64,000 bases of DNA, from assembly GCF_023015905.1 (NCBI RefSeq), contig NZ_JALKBD010000007.1, positions 124,001-188,000 of the forward strand, written 5' to 3'. Positions 2,164 to 10,015 of this stretch are shown here, in pieces. Under the pieces are notes generated by a model, which saw only the letters and a list, made by a program, of their open reading frames with translations, was not told the origin of the DNA and ran no database searches. The DNA comes from Arenibacter sp. F20364. Its GTDB lineage: Bacteria > Bacteroidota > Bacteroidia > Flavobacteriales > Flavobacteriaceae. Position 1 is the stretch's first letter; each line of letters opens with the position of its first letter. The translations under genes were made by a program, and so were the position numbers.

Positions 2164-3045
2164 ATGACAAAGGACATACCCCATATAGAATTTAACCCGG
2201 AAACACCTAACAATTTCGGTTTTGAAATTGTCCCTATTGAAAAAATAGCACAATACAAAGGCCAACACGATCACAATCCGGAATTACCCCACCAACTTAA
2301 ATTTTACAATTTCATTTTTTTTACTGAAGGTTCGGGCAGACATTTTATTGATTTTAAATGGTACCCCGTGCAACAAAACAGTTTGGTTTATCTAACCAAG
2401 GAGCAGGTTAATGCATTCGATTTTTCAGAAAGCTTAAAGGGTTTTTGTATCATATTTACGGAGGAGTATTTTGTGGATTGTTTTTCCAATTTAACGGAAG
2501 AACTAGTGTTTCGGTTGTTTAATCCACAATTGTTCTCCCCTATTCTGCAAATCCCAAAAGAATCCGATTTTGAAAATTATTTTAAATTGTTGCAAAAAGA
2601 ATACAACAACCCTGAAACATTCAACCAAAGAAGCATTGTTAATTCACTTTTTATAATCCTAATATCGAAAGCTGAAAACATAAAGCAAAAACAAACCTAT
2701 CATATTAAGGATACTTCAAAAATTGTGCTTTTCCATAATTTTACTTCACTTATAGAGCATAATTATTCTAAAAGTAGAAGTGCAAATTTTTATGCCGATA
2801 AACTGGCTGTAACATACAAACACTTAAATACCATCTGTAAAGAATTAGTGAACAAAACAGCCAAAAATGTCATTGACGACTTCATTATTCTTCAAGCCAA
2901 AAGGAATTTGATTAATTCCCCTATAAAAAGCACAGAATTGGCTTATAAACTGGGATTTGAGGACCCAACCAACTTTACCAAATATTTTAAAAAAAATACA
3001 GGTTTAACCCCAAATTCCTTTATAAAATCACTTTTGAACAACTAA
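2164..3045 (+). CDS. AraC-family transcriptional regulator
   Basis: A 293-residue one-component regulator. Residues 1-130 form a cupin-like sensing domain typical of Bacteroidota AraC proteins (FFTEGSGRHFIDFKWYPV, then QNSLVYLTKEQ). Residues about 190-290 carry the two helix-turn-helix motifs (ADKLAVTYKHLNTICKEL and ELAYKLGFEDPTNFTKYFKK, then TGLTP). Length is usual for the family. It lies just upstream of, and co-directional with, the operon starting at 3128, and is separated from it by a hairpin, so it is a candidate regulator of the egtB-egtD operon. That link is inferred from position only. Confidence 0.9.
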   Translation: MTKDIPHIEFNPETPNNFGFEIVPIEKIAQYKGQHDHNPELPHQLKFYNFIFFTEGSGRHFIDFKWYPVQQNSLVYLTKEQVNAFDFSESLKGFCIIFTEEYFVDCFSNLTEELVFRLFNPQLFSPILQIPKESDFENYFKLLQKEYNNPETFNQRSIVNSLFIILISKAENIKQKQTYHIKDTSKIVLFHNFTSLIEHNYSKSRSANFYADKLAVTYKHLNTICKELVNKTAKNVIDDFIILQAKRNLINSPIKSTELAYKLGFEDPTNFTKYFKKNTGLTPNSFIKSLLNN

Positions 3046-3127: not shown

Positions 3128-3640
3128 ATGAAGAAAATGAACTTTTCAAGGAAAAATCACGAACACAAGAAAAACAATAGAAATCTTCTGAGTAAAACAA
3201 AATTGGTCACTTTTATTTGTCTTGCTATTTTCAGTATTGGACCTAATTTCGGCCAAAGTACCACTATGGAAGAAAACAAATTTCAATTTGGCGAGCCCGA
3301 ACATTTTTTGGATGGGTACTCTCTTAACTTCCAGTATCAAAATGGCACGGCCATACACATGGATTTTAACGATGGCATAGCCCAATATGAATGGGTTGCC
3401 GGACCTGCAAAAGGAAATGGAAATGCGGACATTCCTTATCGCTCGCGTAAAATTGGTGATAATCTTTATTTGATCAATTGGCACGAAACAGAAATAAATG
3501 ACTATTTGACCATTGTTTTTGATTTTGAAAAAATGATGGTACATAGCTCTATAATAATCGGCTATGCAAACAAGCCTGAAAGAACACTGAAAACGGTATT
3601 TCGCAGTGGGATTATAGATCATTTAAAAAAATCAAATTAA
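3128..3640 (+). CDS. MoaF-like (lipocalin-fold) secreted protein
   Basis: 170 residues: a basic N-terminus, a hydrophobic segment at about 26-42 ending in FGQ (signal-peptide-like), then one beta-rich domain of about 110 residues. The domain pattern (GYSLNFQYQNGTAIHMDF, WVAGPAKG, YRSRKIGDNLYLINWHE, LTIVFDFEKMMVHSS) resembles the MoaF/phenolic-acid-decarboxylase-like lipocalin family, here a single-domain form. No molybdenum-cofactor genes are nearby, so the MoaF name says nothing about function. It is the first gene of a tight operon leading to egtB and egtD. The start may instead be the Met at residue 4. Confidence 0.65.
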   Translation: MKKMNFSRKNHEHKKNNRNLLSKTKLVTFICLAIFSIGPNFGQSTTMEENKFQFGEPEHFLDGYSLNFQYQNGTAIHMDFNDGIAQYEWVAGPAKGNGNADIPYRSRKIGDNLYLINWHETEINDYLTIVFDFEKMMVHSSIIIGYANKPERTLKTVFRSGIIDHLKKSN

Positions 3641-3662
3641 TAAGAATTAAAGTGTAAGCAGT

Positions 3663-3860
3663 ATGAGTCAAGTAGCAGATTGCCCCACTTGTGGCAGTAA
3701 ATCAAAAATTAACAAAAGCAATGGCGAAACTACCTATAAGGCTATTCAAGATGACGAAGTGTTCAAGAAAGTAGGCCAACTAAAAAAAGCCATGGAAAAA
3801 TTTAAAGCACGGGCAGAAGTTTTGGAAAAAGAATTAAAAACATTAAAATCCTCGAAATAA
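3663..3860 (+). CDS. CxxC mini-protein with coiled-coil tail
   Basis: A 65-residue protein with a single CPTCG knuckle at residues 7-11 followed by a Lys/Glu-rich amphipathic helix (about 33-63) that could be a coiled coil. One CxxC pair alone cannot complete a tetrahedral zinc site, so metal binding would need a dimer; a redox-active disulfide is the alternative. It sits 22 bases after the MoaF-like gene and 1 base before the membrane reductase gene, so it is clearly part of the operon. Function unknown. Confidence 0.6.
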   Translation: MSQVADCPTCGSKSKINKSNGETTYKAIQDDEVFKKVGQLKKAMEKFKARAEVLEKELKTLKSSK

Positions 3861-3861
3861 G

Positions 3862-4494
3862 ATGTCATTTTTAAAAAGAAATTATGGTTGGATAATAGTG
3901 GCCATCTTGGCGATTCTACCAATATTTATCATATTAAATATGACAAATATTGACTTTACAGATGGGGTTTCAATTACTTTAATTGAAAGCGCAGGTAACA
4001 ATGGCATGACCACTTTGGAAATGTTGTACCACATCTCCGGCGAATTTGCCATACGATGGATGACTGCTGTATTGACTTGCACACCATTCTTTATACTTTT
4101 TGGAGTTAACAATCTTTTTGTAAGGCAAGCCATGGGTATTGCGACTGCAATATGGAGTTTCCTCCACTTTATTATCTTTTTAGTGGCAGAAGGCTTTTTG
4201 GAAACCTTTGCGCAAGTGAATTATGTAGCAGGATTTATTGCCGTTTTAATTTTAATTCCATTGTTTTTTACTTCCAATAGAAAATCAATGAAAAAACTAA
4301 AAATGAATTGGAAGAAACTACAAAGCTTGTCCTATGCGGCAATTTTTCTTAGCTTGTTACATGTGGCCCTTTTGGAAAAAACCTGGTTGATTTATGCTGT
4401 AATTGTGGGTATTGGATTTCTTATCAGGCTACCGTTGGTGAAAGATAAAATCATCAAATTTAGAATAAACAGAAGAAGATTAAACGCTCTATAA
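3862..4494 (+). CDS. Ferric-reductase-like heme membrane subunit (MsrQ/YedZ-like)
   Basis: 210 residues with about six membrane helices (near 10-28, 65-82, 92-110, 122-138, 156-171, 175-190). Histidines at 57, 102 and 167 lie in or beside helices, and the WKKLQSLSYAAIFLSLLHVAL-like segment (residues 150-170) matches the WRRLHRLxYxxxxLxxLH pattern of MsrQ and ferric-reductase-like membrane domains, which bind b-type heme. Such proteins move electrons across the membrane from a flavin or quinone donor. The next gene encodes an FAD oxidoreductase 2 bases away, a natural electron donor. No MsrP (molybdopterin methionine sulfoxide reductase) is nearby, so the acceptor is unknown. Confidence 0.7.
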   Translation: MSFLKRNYGWIIVAILAILPIFIILNMTNIDFTDGVSITLIESAGNNGMTTLEMLYHISGEFAIRWMTAVLTCTPFFILFGVNNLFVRQAMGIATAIWSFLHFIIFLVAEGFLETFAQVNYVAGFIAVLILIPLFFTSNRKSMKKLKMNWKKLQSLSYAAIFLSLLHVALLEKTWLIYAVIVGIGFLIRLPLVKDKIIKFRINRRRLNAL

Positions 4495-4496
4495 AA

Positions 4497-5225
4497 ATGG
4501 GTCTACTTGAAACCATATTAAAAAATGTTGTATTGCAAGATGCAAGCATTGAAAAAAAGACCAAGATTTCAGAATCTGTTTATAAAATCCGCCTTAAAAG
4601 TGAAAGCATCAAAAAAGCAGAATTTGTTCCTGGCTATTTTTTACGCCTAGGTATCGGCATTGGCAATGATGACCTATCTTTTAAAGACAAAGTAAGAAGT
4701 TATAGCGTATGGAACATTAACAAAACCGAAGGGTATTTAGATTTGGCCATCGCAACAGATAGTAAAGGAATTGGGGCGCAATGGGCTGTGGCTTGCAAGG
4801 AAAATGAAACAGTTTATTTTAAATGGAAAAAAGGAAATTTTCTCCTTGATGAAACCGCAGATAGCTATTTAATGATTGGAGACTTATCTGCATTGTCCCA
4901 TTTATATATTCTGAAAAGAAATTTACCGCACAACAAGCAAGTTGAAGGCTTGGTATATGCCCAAAATTCAAATGATTACTTTGAAGATGTAGATGGATCC
5001 AGACCCTTTAATTTTCATACCTTAAAACAAAACCCAATTTCGGAGATTTTAAATATTATAAAAGAGATCTCGCCAAAACTTAAAGGTAAGATAATGGTTT
5101 ATATAGCTGGAGATAGCAGAGTCTGCATAGCTTTAAACCAATATTTCAGAAATGAGTTAAATTGGAATACCAAGCAGATCAAGACAAAACCATTCTGGAA
5201 CCCAGACAAAAAAGGATTGGAATAA
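4497..5225 (+). CDS. FAD-binding oxidoreductase, siderophore-interacting (SIP) family
   Basis: 242 residues. The N-terminal half is a flavin-binding beta barrel with the RSYSVW motif at 67-72 (RxYS/T FAD phosphate-binding pattern). The C-terminal half resembles the SIP nucleotide-binding domain (YLMIGDLSALSHLY; then KIMVYIAGDSRVCIALNQYF). Family members are NAD(P)H-dependent ferric-siderophore reductases in the cytoplasm. Here it follows a heme membrane subunit and precedes egtB by 1 base, and there is no siderophore transporter, so its partner is more likely the membrane protein or a thiohistidine intermediate than a siderophore. That last step is inference. Confidence 0.8.
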   Translation: MGLLETILKNVVLQDASIEKKTKISESVYKIRLKSESIKKAEFVPGYFLRLGIGIGNDDLSFKDKVRSYSVWNINKTEGYLDLAIATDSKGIGAQWAVACKENETVYFKWKKGNFLLDETADSYLMIGDLSALSHLYILKRNLPHNKQVEGLVYAQNSNDYFEDVDGSRPFNFHTLKQNPISEILNIIKEISPKLKGKIMVYIAGDSRVCIALNQYFRNELNWNTKQIKTKPFWNPDKKGLE

Positions 5226-5226
5226 A

Positions 5227-6381
5227 ATGAAAATAAGTGACAAGTACGCACACATAAGACAGGAAACGGTTACGTTTTGTAGCCATTTACAAGTTGAAGA
5301 TTATTCCATACAAGTGGTTCAATTTGCAAGTCCACCAAAGTGGCATTTGGCCCATACCACTTGGTTCTTTGAAACATTTGTTCTGATTCCGTATTTACAG
5401 GACTACACACCATTTAATTCCAATTATAATTTCCTTTTTAATAGCTATTACAACAATGCCGGAGAAAGAATATTACAAGCAAATAGAGGCAATATGTCCC
5501 GTCCAAGTACCGAGAATATCTATGGGTACCGAGAATACGTGGATGCCAAAATGCAAGAATTATTAAAGAACAATTATGACCAAAAAATAATCGACTTGGT
5601 TATTTTAGGGTTGAATCACGAGCAACAACACCAAGAATTATTGATTACCGATGTAAAATACATGTTGGGAAACAATCCCCTTTTTCCTGTTTTTAATGAA
5701 GGATTCAACTTGGTGAATGATAAAAATACAAAGACAGAAAGCATAAAAATAAATGCTGGGGTTTATGAAATTGGCTACCAAGGAACCGCCTTTTGTTACG
5801 ATAACGAATTAGGAGTGCACAATGTGTATGTTAATGACTTTGAGATAAATAATTATTTAGTTACCAACGGTGACTTTATAGAATTTATGGAAGATGGTGG
5901 TTATTCCGATTTCAATCTTTGGTTGGACGAAGGTTGGTCTTGGGTAAATACCCATAAAATCACCTCTCCCCTGTATTGGCATAAAATTAAGGGAGAATGG
6001 CACTATTACAGCCTTTCGGGATTACAAAAAGTAGATAAAAATGCCATTTTAAGTCATATTGGTTATTATGAAGCCAATGCTTATGCCGAATGGAAAGGCA
6101 TGCGATTACCAACCGAATTTGAATGGGAAATTGCGGCACCACGGATGGCATGGGGAAAACGGTGGGAATGGACGAACAGTGCCTATTTGCCCTACCCAAA
6201 TTTCAAAAAAGAAAATGGCGCCCTGGGTGAATACAACGGAAAATTTATGAGCAACAAAATGGTTTTAAGAGGCGCTTCGGTTGCTACATCAAAAAACCAT
6301 AGCCGATCAACGTATCGAAATTTTTTTAATCCAACGGAAAGATGGCAATTTACCGGAATAAGACTAACTAAATCATTATGA
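5227..6381 (+). CDS. egtB: Ergothioneine biosynthesis protein EgtB (iron-dependent sulfoxide synthase)
   Basis: 384 residues. The N-terminal DinB-like bundle carries the iron site: WHLAHTTWFFE at 39-49 (His43 likely) and HEQQHQE at 131-137 (His131 and His135). The C-terminal part is a formylglycine-generating-enzyme-type domain (GMRLPTEFEWEIAAPR, RGASVAT, YRNFFNPTERWQFTGIRL). EgtB joins a thiol donor to trimethylhistidine (hercynine) with O2 to give the sulfoxide. No C-terminal methyltransferase is fused, which separates it from OvoA. Slightly short against many EgtB proteins of about 420 residues. It overlaps egtD by 4 bases. No egtA, egtC or egtE is in the window, so the thiol donor may be cysteine itself. 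Confidence 0.92.
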   Translation: MKISDKYAHIRQETVTFCSHLQVEDYSIQVVQFASPPKWHLAHTTWFFETFVLIPYLQDYTPFNSNYNFLFNSYYNNAGERILQANRGNMSRPSTENIYGYREYVDAKMQELLKNNYDQKIIDLVILGLNHEQQHQELLITDVKYMLGNNPLFPVFNEGFNLVNDKNTKTESIKINAGVYEIGYQGTAFCYDNELGVHNVYVNDFEINNYLVTNGDFIEFMEDGGYSDFNLWLDEGWSWVNTHKITSPLYWHKIKGEWHYYSLSGLQKVDKNAILSHIGYYEANAYAEWKGMRLPTEFEWEIAAPRMAWGKRWEWTNSAYLPYPNFKKENGALGEYNGKFMSNKMVLRGASVATSKNHSRSTYRNFFNPTERWQFTGIRLTKSL

Positions 6382-7379
6382 TCGAAACAATTAAAACTAA
6401 GGTCGAAAACCAGTATAAGCAAAACCTCAGCATGCTGGAGATGTTTAAAAGCGAAGTAGAGAGCGGGCTAAATTCATCGCCTAAAACGCTTCCTTCAAAA
6501 TATTTTTACGATAAAAAAGGCGATGCGCTTTTTGTTGAAATCATGAATTTGCCAGAATACTATCTAACCCGTAGCGAGTTGGATATTTTTCAAAATAAAA
6601 CGCAACAATTAATCGATGTCCTGGATTTGAATCCTGATACTTATTTTGAATTAATAGAATTGGGAGCTGGTGATGGGTTGAAAACCAAAAAGCTATTGAG
6701 GTCCTTGGATGCACAAAATTTTAAGTTCGACTATATCCCAATCGATATTTCCGTGAATGCTTTAAAGCTTCTGGAGCAGGACTTGGACAGGGCTTTGCCC
6801 AATGTGTCCGTAAAAACAAAACACGGCGATTATTTTGAAGTTTTAGGGTCTTTAAAAAAGAGCAAAAAACCTAAAGTTATCTTATTTCTCGGTTCCAATA
6901 TTGGAAATATGACGGACGAATTGGCCACACAGTTTATTTATAATTTGGGAACAAATCTACAAAATGGCGATAAATTATTATTAGGTGTGGATTTGATAAA
7001 ACCTAAAAAAATAGTTCTGCCTGCCTATAATGACAGTAAAGGAATTACGGCAGAATTCAATCTTAATCTTTTGAAAAGAATCAATAAGGAACTAGGAGGG
7101 GATTTTAACCTGGATAATTTTGAACATCGGCCAGAATACAATGAAGCAGAAGGAATAGCCAAAAGTTTTATTGTGAGTACCGTTCATCAAAAAGTAGAAA
7201 TAAAAGCATTAAAAAAAACCTATGAATTTGCCAAGGGAGAAAGCATTCATACAGAAATATCCAGAAAATATAATGATCCCATTATTGAGAAAATAATTTC
7301 CAAAACCGATTTTGGTCTTAAAACCAAAATAATGGATGGCAAAGAATATTTTGCAGACTACATCCTTACTAGACACTGA
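6378..7379 (+). CDS. egtD: L-histidine N-alpha-methyltransferase EgtD
   Basis: 333 residues, the usual EgtD length. SAM-binding features: ELGAGDGLKTKKLL (motif I, about 93-106), IPIDIS (motif II) and LFLGSNIGNM. The N-terminal GLNSSPKTLPSKYFYDKKGDALFVEIMNLPEYYLTRSE-like region (about 31-69) is the typical EgtD substrate lid. The enzyme methylates histidine three times to hercynine, the EgtB substrate. The ATGA overlap with egtB implies translational coupling. It is the last gene of the operon. Confidence 0.93.
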   Translation: MIETIKTKVENQYKQNLSMLEMFKSEVESGLNSSPKTLPSKYFYDKKGDALFVEIMNLPEYYLTRSELDIFQNKTQQLIDVLDLNPDTYFELIELGAGDGLKTKKLLRSLDAQNFKFDYIPIDISVNALKLLEQDLDRALPNVSVKTKHGDYFEVLGSLKKSKKPKVILFLGSNIGNMTDELATQFIYNLGTNLQNGDKLLLGVDLIKPKKIVLPAYNDSKGITAEFNLNLLKRINKELGGDFNLDNFEHRPEYNEAEGIAKSFIVSTVHQKVEIKALKKTYEFAKGESIHTEISRKYNDPIIEKIISKTDFGLKTKIMDGKEYFADYILTRH

Positions 7380-7725
7380 AAAATAGAGAAGTCAACGCGT
7401 TGCTCCTTGGGCCATGAAGCAAAGCCACCCATTTTGTGCAAGAAGGACAGTTCGATTGATATTAAATTGTTATTGAATTGTTTAGGGCAATGTTGTCCCA
7501 ATGAGAGTCCAGGCTTATCAGGTCGAGTGCTGTCGAGACCTTATTATAGATATATCGTCGTCAAAACCTTTCGACCGCACCTGTCACCCGAGTGGCCCTT
7601 GGAGAATAAAAATTAATTATAATAAACTGATAACCAGTTAATGATGTGTTTTTTTGAAATAAAAAACACCTTAAGTACGTAAAATATAATTTATAACACT
7701 CACCCTTTTTAATTAATCCAATATC
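7380..7725. other. Intergenic region, no supported gene
   Basis: 346 bases between egtD and the SDR gene. A 69-codon frame at 7407-7616 has no family logic. The centre (7518-7540) holds an imperfect GGTCGAG/CGAGACC inverted repeat. The last 80 bases are AT-rich and presumably hold the promoter of the gene at 7726. No clear terminator for the egt operon was seen. Confidence 0.4.
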
Positions 7726-8583
7726 ATGAAAATAGCAGTAACATCGGCAAGTGGAAAACTAGGTGCTTCAATCATAAAACACTTGACACCGCTAATAGGA
7801 AAAGACAATGTAATCGGGATTGCCCGTACGCCTGCAAAAGCAAAACATCTCGGTGTGGAAATCCGGGAAGGCGACTACAACAGTCGTGAGCATTTTGACA
7901 AGGCATTGCAAGGGGTTGACGCAGTTCTTTTGGTGTCGGGAATGGATGATCCAAAAAAAAGGATACAACAACACCAAAATGTAATTGAAGCAGCCAAGGC
8001 CAATGGCGTTAAAAAAATAGTCTACACAAGTATTGTTGGAGATGAAAATAAGAACACCTTTAGCCCTATTGTTCAAAGCAATAGACAAACTGAAGCCGAC
8101 GTACAAAACTCAGGGCTTGATTGGGTGATTGGCCGAAATGGAATTTACATAGAACCAGATTTGGAATATCTGGACACCTACGTCAAAGATGGTGAAATTA
8201 GAAACTCCGCCGGAGATGGTCTATGTCCTTATACCAGCAGGGAAGAATTAGGATATGCATACAGCAAAATGCTAACGGAGGAAAAACACAATGGACATAT
8301 TTACAACCTTGTTGGGAAGCCCATAACCCAAAGTCAACTTGCAGATTATATAAATCAGATTTTTAATACAAAGCTTGTATACAACCCCATGACGGCTGAA
8401 GCCTATGCAGCAGAAAGAAAAGCGGCCTTGGGCGATTTTTTGGGAACCATAATAGCTGGAATTTATGAAGGCATCAAAACAGGTGCAAATAATGTAAGTT
8501 CAGACTATGAAAAGGCTGCGGGAAGAGAACATAAGGCACCTCTAGAAATGATTAAAGCCACAACAAACACCAATGAAAACTAG
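7726..8583 (+). CDS. NAD(P)H-binding SDR, QOR2/NmrA-type oxidoreductase
   Basis: 285 residues. The N-terminal Rossmann signature TSASGKLGASI, the GDYNSREHFDKALQGVDAVLLVSG segment and VKKIVYTSIVGD are typical of atypical SDRs of the QOR2 (YtfG)/TMR group, which reduce quinones or triphenylmethane dyes with NADPH. The TEADVQNSGLDWVIGRNGIYIE segment matches the substrate-side loop of that group. Cytoplasmic. Its 3' end overlaps the next frame by 11 bases if that gene starts at 8573. Confidence 0.85.
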   Translation: MKIAVTSASGKLGASIIKHLTPLIGKDNVIGIARTPAKAKHLGVEIREGDYNSREHFDKALQGVDAVLLVSGMDDPKKRIQQHQNVIEAAKANGVKKIVYTSIVGDENKNTFSPIVQSNRQTEADVQNSGLDWVIGRNGIYIEPDLEYLDTYVKDGEIRNSAGDGLCPYTSREELGYAYSKMLTEEKHNGHIYNLVGKPITQSQLADYINQIFNTKLVYNPMTAEAYAAERKAALGDFLGTIIAGIYEGIKTGANNVSSDYEKAAGREHKAPLEMIKATTNTNEN

Positions 8584-8635
8584 AAAAAATCAAGCAGTAG
8601 ATCTATATTCAAGAGGTGCTAACAGTTATAAAACA

Positions 8636-10015
8636 ATGATAAGAGCCAGTATCATTTTATTGGGAATTGTCTTTTTACAGGCTTGCCAAAATTCCCCGGA
8701 AAAAAATAGCGTTATCAAGTCGGAATTAGGACAGGAACACCCTAATATTACCAAACTTAAAGACCAGAGTGCTGAATTTACGCCGGAAATTATCAAATTA
8801 AATGAAAACGTTTATGTGGCCGTAGGATATGATGGTTCCAATACTTCAATGGTAATTGGAGAGCATGGAGTAGTCATAATAGATGCCCTTCGTGCCCTTG
8901 GTGCGGCAGAAACAGTTGCAGAAAAGTTCAGGGAAATAACCACTAAACCTGTACAGGCACTAATTTATACGCATGGACATAACGATCATACCGGGGGTGC
9001 CTCTGCTTTTGTTGGCAATGGCAAAAACGCTAAGATAATTGCAAGAAAAGGGTTTAAAGAGGAGTTGGAAGGAAAATCTCCCGTAGAGCCCATCTTAAAA
9101 AAGCGAAACGCGCGACAGTTTGGGCGGAATTTACCGGCCAAAGATATTATCAATAGAGGAGTTGCATCTGGTAGCACCTCAACGGACAGGGTTGGAGAAG
9201 GATATTTAGAACCAAATATTACATTTAAAGATTCTATATCAATTACCCTTGCAGGCATAAATTTTGAATTGTTCGCTGCCAATGGTGAAACCAATGACGC
9301 GCTTTTTGTATGGATACCATCTTTAGAATCCCTGTTCACCGGAGATAATTATTACAAGTCATTTCCTAACCTTTATGCCATTAGAGGTTCTCAATATAGG
9401 GATGTTAAATCATGGGGTGAATCCATAAAAAAAATGGGGAGTCTTCCTGTGCAATATTTGATCCCGGGCCATACACGCCCTCTCTCTGGAAAATCGATTA
9501 TCCACAATAATCTAAACAACTATTCCACAGCAATTTTAAGTGTTTACCAGCAAACAATTGATGCCATGAACAAGGGATATACGCTACAACAAACCGTTGA
9601 TAGTGTTAAGGTGGCAGATTCTCTATTACAGCAATCCAATTTACAAGAGTTCTATGGTTCGGTTCCATGGGGAGTTCGTTCTGTATTTCTCCATTATGTA
9701 GGTTGGTTTGATGGAAACCCAACTAACCTTTACCCACTTTCTTCCTCCTCGGAGGCCAAACATATTATTGAACTTGCAGGAGGTGGGAATCAGGTATTGA
9801 CACAACTCAATCAAGCGATTAATAAAGGTGATTATCAATGGGGGCTACAATTAGCTGATTATCTGCTTCAAACTGATTTTAAAAGAACGAAAGTTATAAA
9901 TGCGAAGATAGCGCTGTTAAGGGCTTTAGCAGCACAACAAATAAATGCCCCGGCAAGAAACTATTACCTCTCTTTTGCATATGAACTGGAGAAAAACAAC
10001 CTTGAACCTCACTAA
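8636..10015 (+). CDS. Alkylsulfatase-type metallo-beta-lactamase-fold lipoprotein
   Basis: I start at the ATG at 8636 because it opens directly into a lipoprotein signal (MIRASIILLG, then a lipobox ending in LQAC); a longer start at 8573 adds 21 non-hydrophobic residues and overlaps the SDR gene. The zinc motif THGHNDHTGG is intact, followed by downstream ligands in GETNDAL and IPGHTRPL. An alkylsulfatase dimerisation-like helical region follows (WFDGNPTNLYPL, LAGGGNQVL). At about 459 residues it lacks the C-terminal SCP2-like domain of SdsA1/BDS1 alkylsulfatases. Probably a periplasmic hydrolase of alkyl sulfates or a related ester. Confidence 0.8.
   Translation: MIRASIILLGIVFLQACQNSPEKNSVIKSELGQEHPNITKLKDQSAEFTPEIIKLNENVYVAVGYDGSNTSMVIGEHGVVIIDALRALGAAETVAEKFREITTKPVQALIYTHGHNDHTGGASAFVGNGKNAKIIARKGFKEELEGKSPVEPILKKRNARQFGRNLPAKDIINRGVASGSTSTDRVGEGYLEPNITFKDSISITLAGINFELFAANGETNDALFVWIPSLESLFTGDNYYKSFPNLYAIRGSQYRDVKSWGESIKKMGSLPVQYLIPGHTRPLSGKSIIHNNLNNYSTAILSVYQQTIDAMNKGYTLQQTVDSVKVADSLLQQSNLQEFYGSVPWGVRSVFLHYVGWFDGNPTNLYPLSSSSEAKHIIELAGGGNQVLTQLNQAINKGDYQWGLQLADYLLQTDFKRTKVINAKIALLRALAAQQINAPARNYYLSFAYELEKNNLEPH

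Follow-up and report, generated by a model that had tools for sequence, protein, structure and literature searches.

An AraC-headed redox island carrying egtB and egtD in Arenibacter sp. F20364 and other Bacteroidota

Introduction

According to the accessible part of PMC11031084, the proteins MsrQ and Fre interact, electrons pass from NADPH over flavin to haem, and ferric-reductase-domain proteins move electrons outwards. In ergothioneine synthesis the closest solved enzyme is the EgtB of Chloracidobacterium, for which the accessible part of PMC10903977 reports a preference for cysteine. Relatives of both systems lie side by side in a stretch of 64,000 nucleotides from Arenibacter sp. F20364 (contig NZ_JALKBD010000007.1, positions 124,001 to 188,000; hereafter the window). 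An earlier note on this DNA had described six adjacent genes for a MoaF-like protein, a CxxC protein, a haem-type membrane subunit, a SIP-family FAD oxidoreductase (SIP), EgtB and EgtD, and had suggested that the flavin/haem pair may deliver electrons for the final reaction on the way to ergothioneine, or move them to or from a new thiohistidine product. We consider it reasonably probable that these genes are part of a mosaic island for redox and detoxification tasks in Bacteroidota, headed by an AraC gene, and that its members are kept for one shared stress and not for SIP and the haem subunit to feed EgtB or a lyase.

Results and discussion

Recurrence of the island

The contigs of 84,980 species were scanned with two conserved peptide patterns from the alignment of the haem subunit, which gives a lower bound and reaches close relatives only. 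The scan returned 77 haem loci, all Bacteroidota by title; egtB was present in 21 and egtD in 20 of them. Three of the loci belong to genomes that are also in our sample of the family Flavobacteriaceae (G002, G063, G129), which comprises 149 genomes, equal to 149 genera by tally. Gene contents were counted in the 63 loci whose flanks reach 4.5 kb or more upstream and 5.5 kb or more downstream, taken from 72 loci in which the haem reading frame spans more than 60% of the query. The frame of the island consists of the AraC gene (50 loci; counted on the same strand from 7 kb before to 6 kb after the haem gene, and mostly upstream), the NmrA gene (48) and the CxxC gene (41). Variable cargo comprises SIP (30), OMT (30), a SnoaL-like gene (28), egtB (19), MoaF (16), a racemase-fold gene (13), MBL1 (9) and MBL2 (8). 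The SnoaL-like genes were grouped by single linkage; the members tested match SnoaL_2, except L103:7427-8299, which matches no Pfam family.

The order haem-SIP-egtB-egtD-racemase-NmrA is found in Flavicella, Wenyingzhuangia, Aureibaculum and Algibacter pacificus, and the order haem-NmrA-SIP-egtB-egtD in four Arenibacter. The gene set recurs in other genera, so that the linkage is more than chance and not unique to this Arenibacter genome; the cluster with its flavin/haem electron-transfer pair, as described in the earlier note, is borne out. The limits of 3128..7379 given there were drawn too narrowly on both sides, since an AraC gene in front of the six and genes for an NmrA protein and a metallo-hydrolase behind them recur as well; we assign these three genes to the same set because relatives group them likewise. 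Among the first SIP genomes egtBD was seen in 2 of 6, which would make it a mere passenger; the 77-locus set shows a recurring optional cassette instead. In a literature search that covered few subscription papers, no paper was found on the AraC-haem-egtBD arrangement, nor on EgtB and EgtD in Bacteroidetes.

The sporadic occurrence of the island raises the question of hitch-hiking mobile genes without a common function. An intact haem gene is present in 4 of the 149 family genomes and a broken one in another (G050), cargo types are many, and the egtB label changes 12 times on the best haem tree, three of these changes being forced by well-supported branches. Strand, similar order and near-zero gaps are nevertheless kept across genera of several families, and the frame genes are conserved. 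The EgtB proteins of the islands are no random imports either. In a tree of 83 rows (the window, 21 island and 61 family rows) all 22 island rows fall into one group of 25 with an SH-aLRT support of 98, so that hitch-hiking appears unlikely. The three remaining rows of this group are the family rows L148, L159 and L166; ten family rows, six of them with a racemase-fold gene, lie next to it, and 48 other family rows stand apart. When egtB was compared with other cargo by independent pairs on the haem tree, only three pairs lay on well-supported branches, which left the test without power.

Several loci show variants of the arrangement. Two Arenibacter genomes (L051 and L068; L052 and L067) carry two haem islands each; the two differ in type, and only one of them includes egtBD. 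At the SIP position between the haem gene and egtB, L099 (10685-13081), L096 and L085 encode a fusion of a Rieske and a glutamate-synthase-like part of about 540 aa, beside a protein of about 245 aa that has no Pfam match (Pfam was run on the L099 copies only). A decayed remnant in G121 (L019:9315-9430) joins the start of an AraC gene (13 residues, 77% identity) to the last 21 residues of SIP (95% identity); it lies about 1 Mb from the egtD of this genome.

The haem subunit and SIP

His57, His102 and His167 of the haem subunit, already named in the earlier note, are invariant in all 67 aligned sequences (the window protein and 66 relatives of 191-229 aa) and match H45, H91 and H164 of E. coli MsrQ, which we take to be haem ligands. 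The structural model of the subunit has a mean pLDDT of 79. A sensory rhodopsin, the sole solved-structure match of the haem alignment (E=0.0015), was judged to be a membrane-helix artefact. Neither the SIP alignment nor the single SIP sequence matched a solved structure; the SIP motifs RSYS and GDLSALSH are invariant in 6 of 6 sequences.

Full SIP homologues occur in 6 of the 149 family genomes (seven more have short or weak matches), and all six lie in one locus with a haem-type membrane partner. This partner is MsrQ-like in G000, G002, G063 (about 3 kb apart) and G129. In G001 and G119 it is an overlapping DUF4405 protein with a cytochrome-b561 match under the model cut-off; at L016:8623-10163 and L018:9414-10899, SIP and a DUF4405 membrane protein share overlapping frames, with the latter in place of the MsrQ-like protein. 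The pairing agrees with an electron conduit from flavin to haem like that of MsrQ-Fre or NOX. In Flammeovirga the haem-SIP pair stands without other island genes at five loci, with a 4-base overlap in four of them. A weak 57-bit haem match in G075 was counted as a paralogue. Broken copies of the haem gene are present at G050:C40, L126 and G403:C10, which suggests loss in some lineages.

Sequence family and aligned histidines would also suit a true MsrQ working with the methionine-sulfoxide reductase MsrP. However, a single E. coli MsrP query, which a very divergent MsrP could escape, drew a blank in 19 of the 20 haem genomes searched, the window genome included, and gave one weak partial match in G129. 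This makes a true MsrQ extremely improbable, and an MsrPQ system in the window genome is mostly refuted, although some other, unrelated acceptor may play a comparable part.

The conduit and ergothioneine genes

Within the family sample egtD was found in 63 of 149 genomes, at 64 places. The haem/SIP pair is near egtD at two of these (G000, G002). Around the other 62, counted within 6.5 kb on the same strand and in some cases ending at a contig end, neither a haem gene nor SIP occurred; egtB was present at 61, DUF427 at 25, a racemase-fold gene at 9, NmrA at 2 and AraC, CxxC and MoaF at one each. Thus, the family keeps its ergothioneine genes in two or more different gene neighbourhoods, among them the AraC-headed redox island with its membrane electron conduit. 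In the other egtBD lineage (L138-L199) a DUF427 gene is often near (25 of 62 loci), and L157 has the order egtD-egtB.

These counts bear on the proposal of the earlier note, extended here to a SIP/haem pair that serves as reductant for C-S cleavage or sulfenate reduction. Gaps of one or two bases make a tight operon in the window, SIP is present in 9 of the 19 full egtB loci, where it directly precedes egtB in 8 of the 9, and the accessible part of PMC10805701 describes that product release by the fungal lyase Egt2 depends on a reductant. SIP is not enriched with egtB, however: it accompanies egtB in 9 of 19 loci and is present in 21 of 44 loci without egtB (p=1; ancestry ignored). Since the pair is found at only 2 of 64 egtD places, it is not a general reductant of ergothioneine synthesis. 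The co-occurrence of SIP and haem genes with egtB-egtD that the note had proposed to look for across the family thus fails at the 62 places where both are absent, and the absence of the upstream genes beside egtB-egtD in relatives, which it had named as refuting, largely applies. L148 (G119) has AraC, MoaF, CxxC, egtBD, racemase-fold and NmrA genes and no haem gene; therefore island-type egtBD has no need of the haem/SIP pair. EgtB and the lyase are presumed to be cytosolic enzymes. The conduit family, in contrast, moves electrons outwards (PMC11031084, accessible part). Consequently, we regard a role of the pair as reductant in the pathway as very unlikely.

At the level of whole genomes the haem gene does keep company with egtD. 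From 56 haem loci without egtB we left out two with a second, egtB-bearing island in the genome, 14 titled as metagenome-assembled genomes, and L101; L127, among the 40 chosen loci, holds a haem gene fragment only. Of the 39 genomes searched, 35 have egtD, compared with 59 of the 144 family genomes without a haem gene that served as background (p=2e-8). For genomes of at least 3.8 Mb the numbers are 33 of 36 and 20 of 41 (p=5e-5). Within Maribacter egtD is present in 13 of 13 genomes with and 15 of 23 without the haem gene (p=0.03), two weak haem matches of 64-66 bits being counted as absent and several of the 13 copies having a stop, with the G403 copy broken; egtD is unlinked to the haem gene in 11 of the 13. 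Within Flavobacterium the counts are 2 of 3 and 23 of 196 (p=0.04). A stratified permutation over both genera gave 0.0008. Contigs were compared, to see whether egtD is remote from the haem gene, for Maribacter and for G173 (Flavobacterium) only.

The tie between haem gene and egtD seems to be one-way: conduit genomes mostly have egtD, whereas ergothioneine makers rarely have the conduit. This argues against a conduit that acts as the reductant in making ergothioneine and is compatible either with a conduit that depends on ergothioneine or with both answering the same stress. In the former case ergothioneine would serve the island, in that the conduit or a periplasmic acceptor uses, protects or regenerates it (for example its oxidised form), and the haem gene would be kept mainly in makers. 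The genome-wide excess of egtD, its recurrence within Maribacter, where the genes are mostly unlinked, and within Flavobacterium, and the missing reverse tie agree with this. On the other hand, four of the 39 genomes lack egtD, some of the counted haem copies are broken or have an in-frame stop, strains within one genus are non-independent, and the same limited literature search found no paper joining MsrQ and ergothioneine. We therefore see such a dependence as a doubtful alternative to the response to a shared stress that we prefer. The one-way tie makes a physiological role of bacterial ergothioneine testable.

EgtB, EgtD and the lyase

The closest solved structure to the window EgtB is the Chloracidobacterium enzyme (PDB 8qf6/6qki, E=3e-108, compared with 6e-29 for the mycobacterial enzyme), in agreement with the cysteine-using type of EgtB that the earlier note had considered. 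His40/43, His131 and His135 are present, as is Tyr74-Tyr75, aligned with a Tyr-Tyr pair of Chloracidobacterium EgtB; we take these residues to have catalytic roles and importance. The window enzyme would probably use free cysteine as donor. EgtA and EgtC would then not be needed, because the closest solved EgtB prefers cysteine. An assignment as SenA was rejected, as the SenA model scored 335.5 bits against a cut-off of 420, and OvoA scored lower and under its own cut-off.

EgtD aligns with the solved EgtD 4uy6 (E=2e-52), including the FLGSxIGN and GExxxTExS motifs, and misses the cut-off of TIGR03438 by 1.9 bits (289.0 compared with 290.9). Since 45 of the 63 family genomes with an EgtD match fall below it likewise, this cut-off is strict for the family.

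In agreement with the earlier note, we saw neither egtA nor egtC nor egtE at the locus; genome-wide, only EgtE was searched. Its curated cut-off was passed in none of the 149 family genomes (best score in the window genome 83.6 of 400 bits), so that its lack characterises the family and not this operon. Weak EgtE matches were present in 148 of 149 family genomes and in 14 of 14 controls. The controls contain no known EgtE holder; therefore the result shows that a recognised EgtE is absent and not that a lyase is.

In relatives, egtD is followed by a gene whose product was modelled with an Asp/Glu-racemase fold (pLDDT 91; closest structure 5ell, E=1e-12). Racemase-fold matches occur in 40 of the 149 family genomes, ten of them strong at 264-340 bits and the next at 99; all ten strong genes lie directly after egtD, and G121 has a decayed copy after egtD. 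Among the 63 haem loci the gene is present in 11 of 19 with and 2 of 44 without egtB (Fisher p=7e-6, ancestry ignored). In the 21 aligned proteins (alignment A4, L014:10446-11108 and 20 more) the first catalytic Cys is replaced by Pro and the second is kept throughout. Cofactor-independent racemases can eliminate: in the accessible part of PMC8142540, glutamate racemase with either Cys left eliminates chloride from 3-chloroglutamate, the enzyme yields pyruvate from 3-chloroalanine, and a Cys-to-Thr change turns a proline-type epimerase into a dehydratase. On account of these one-Cys eliminations we put forward, very tentatively, that the protein of the egtB-egtD-racemase triplet may be a pyridoxal-free C-S lyase in place of EgtE, whose remaining Cys would take the alpha proton of hercynylcysteine sulfoxide so that sulfenate leaves. 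For bacteria in which EgtE is unrecognised, the triplet offers a specific candidate as the missing lyase. No match to the racemase-fold gene was found in the window genome, which must have another lyase if the hypothesis holds. BLAST found no racemase-fold neighbour in the larger EgtB group, and in L102 and L115 the gene adjoins the haem gene without egtBD. The limited literature search gave no relevant paper joining ergothioneine, EgtB and racemase.

Proposed function of the island

In the island as we picture it, NAD(P)H would reduce the FAD on SIP, SIP would reduce the b-type haem of the membrane subunit, and the electron would exit on the periplasmic side to an acceptor there. EgtD would make hercynine and EgtB hercynylcysteine sulfoxide, probably with free cysteine, and a lyase presumably encoded elsewhere would complete ergothioneine. 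The stress that calls for all of these tools, including the quinone/dye-type reductase of the NmrA family and the hydrolase, would probably be exposure to redox-active aromatic or electrophilic compounds.

Several observations weigh against this picture. The haem subunit is family-like, with 46.2 bits against NF003831 (equivalog cut-off 130) and 26.0 bits (E=1e-5) against Ferric_reduct PF01794 (gathering cut-off 28), and the best PDB match of its model, the NOX5 membrane domain (probability 0.99, TM 0.51), is non-significant with E=0.06. In 33 of the 63 haem loci no SIP is nearby, and the racemase-fold gene is absent from 8 of 19 egtB islands and from the window. The company of haem gene and egtD, missing in the four genomes mentioned, may reflect shared ancestry, because the haem set includes families outside the background and the tests within single genera involve few genomes. 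A spacer of 346 bases separates egtD from the NmrA gene, and therefore the NmrA and metallo-hydrolase genes may be off the egtD transcript. Co-regulation is assumed from the layout and the AraC gene, and the inducer class is suggested by enzyme resemblance only.

Layout of the locus

The features of the locus are given in Table 1. All six central reading frames are open and on the forward strand, and recomputation returned the gaps of 22, 1, 2, 1 and -4 bases reported before. The earlier family assignments all hold, although the haem subunit and EgtD lie under the cut-offs given above and the CxxC protein of 65 aa is below every family cut-off in the profile search. Its CPTCGSK is invariant in 4 of 4 aligned sequences. 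The MoaF-like protein has a hydrophobic N-terminal segment at residues 20-38. The metallo-beta-lactamase-fold protein was judged by eye to be a lipoprotein (LQAC), and its gene, with counterparts in 8 of the 63 haem loci, shares 11 bases with the end of the NmrA gene. The idea that the spacer holds a relic of the racemase gene was considered and dropped.

Table 1. Features of the island in the window, with positions counted from its first nucleotide
Feature	Position	Strand	Basis
AraC-family regulator (HTH_18; HpaA-like), head of island	2164..3045	+	PF12833 E=4e-16
MoaF-like protein, probably secreted, optional cargo	3128..3640	+	PF22036 E=8e-9, 35.7 bits, cut-off 27
CxxC protein, 65 aa, island frame	3663..3860	+	conserved among relatives
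MsrQ-like haem membrane subunit (ferric-reductase-domain family), island frame	3862..4494	+	NF003831 E=4e-12
SIP-family FAD/NAD(P)H oxidoreductase, presumed partner of haem subunit	4497..5225	+	PF04954 E=1e-10 (over cut-off); PF00970 E=8e-7
EgtB sulfoxide synthase	5227..6381	+	TIGR03440 517.1 bits, cut-off 360
EgtD-type histidine methyltransferase	6378..7379	+	PF10017 327.9 bits, cut-off 23
Spacer; relatives have the racemase-fold gene there, none in window	7380..7725	+	tblastn best E=0.024, no convincing trace
NmrA-family reductase near triphenylmethane reductase/QOR2 (ytfG), island frame	7726..8583	+	PDB 2vrb E=2e-35, 2zcu E=2e-31
Metallo-beta-lactamase-fold protein with alkylsulfatase dimerisation domain, optional cargo	8573..10015	+	PF00753, PF14863

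Comparison with known systems

Like MsrQ-Fre of E. coli, the window encodes a haem subunit of the ferric-reductase-domain family that is separate from its soluble flavin/NAD(P)H protein, and the three histidines align. In contrast to E. coli, the flavoprotein is of the SIP type and not Fre and is encoded beside the haem gene, no MsrP was found with the query described, Gln takes the place of MsrQ His151, and the MsrQ cut-off is missed. The MsrQ-like clusters of the flavinylation survey, in the accessible part of PMC8238504, likewise combine an MsrQ-like protein with a partner on the NAD(P)H side; the window differs by having no ApbE or FMN-binding domain in its nine scanned proteins, by its origin in Bacteroidota and by its ergothioneine genes.

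The cysteine-type EgtB and the EgtD of Chloracidobacterium thermophilum are the nearest counterpart of the window pair, given that this EgtB is the closest solved one. Unlike there, egtBD lies inside an AraC redox island, EgtE stays below its cut-off, and the donor is predicted from the sequence. Finally, the protein encoded at 7726-8583 resembles triphenylmethane reductase and QOR2 of the NmrA family at the E values of Table 1 but, as a putative reductase, is encoded inside the redox island.

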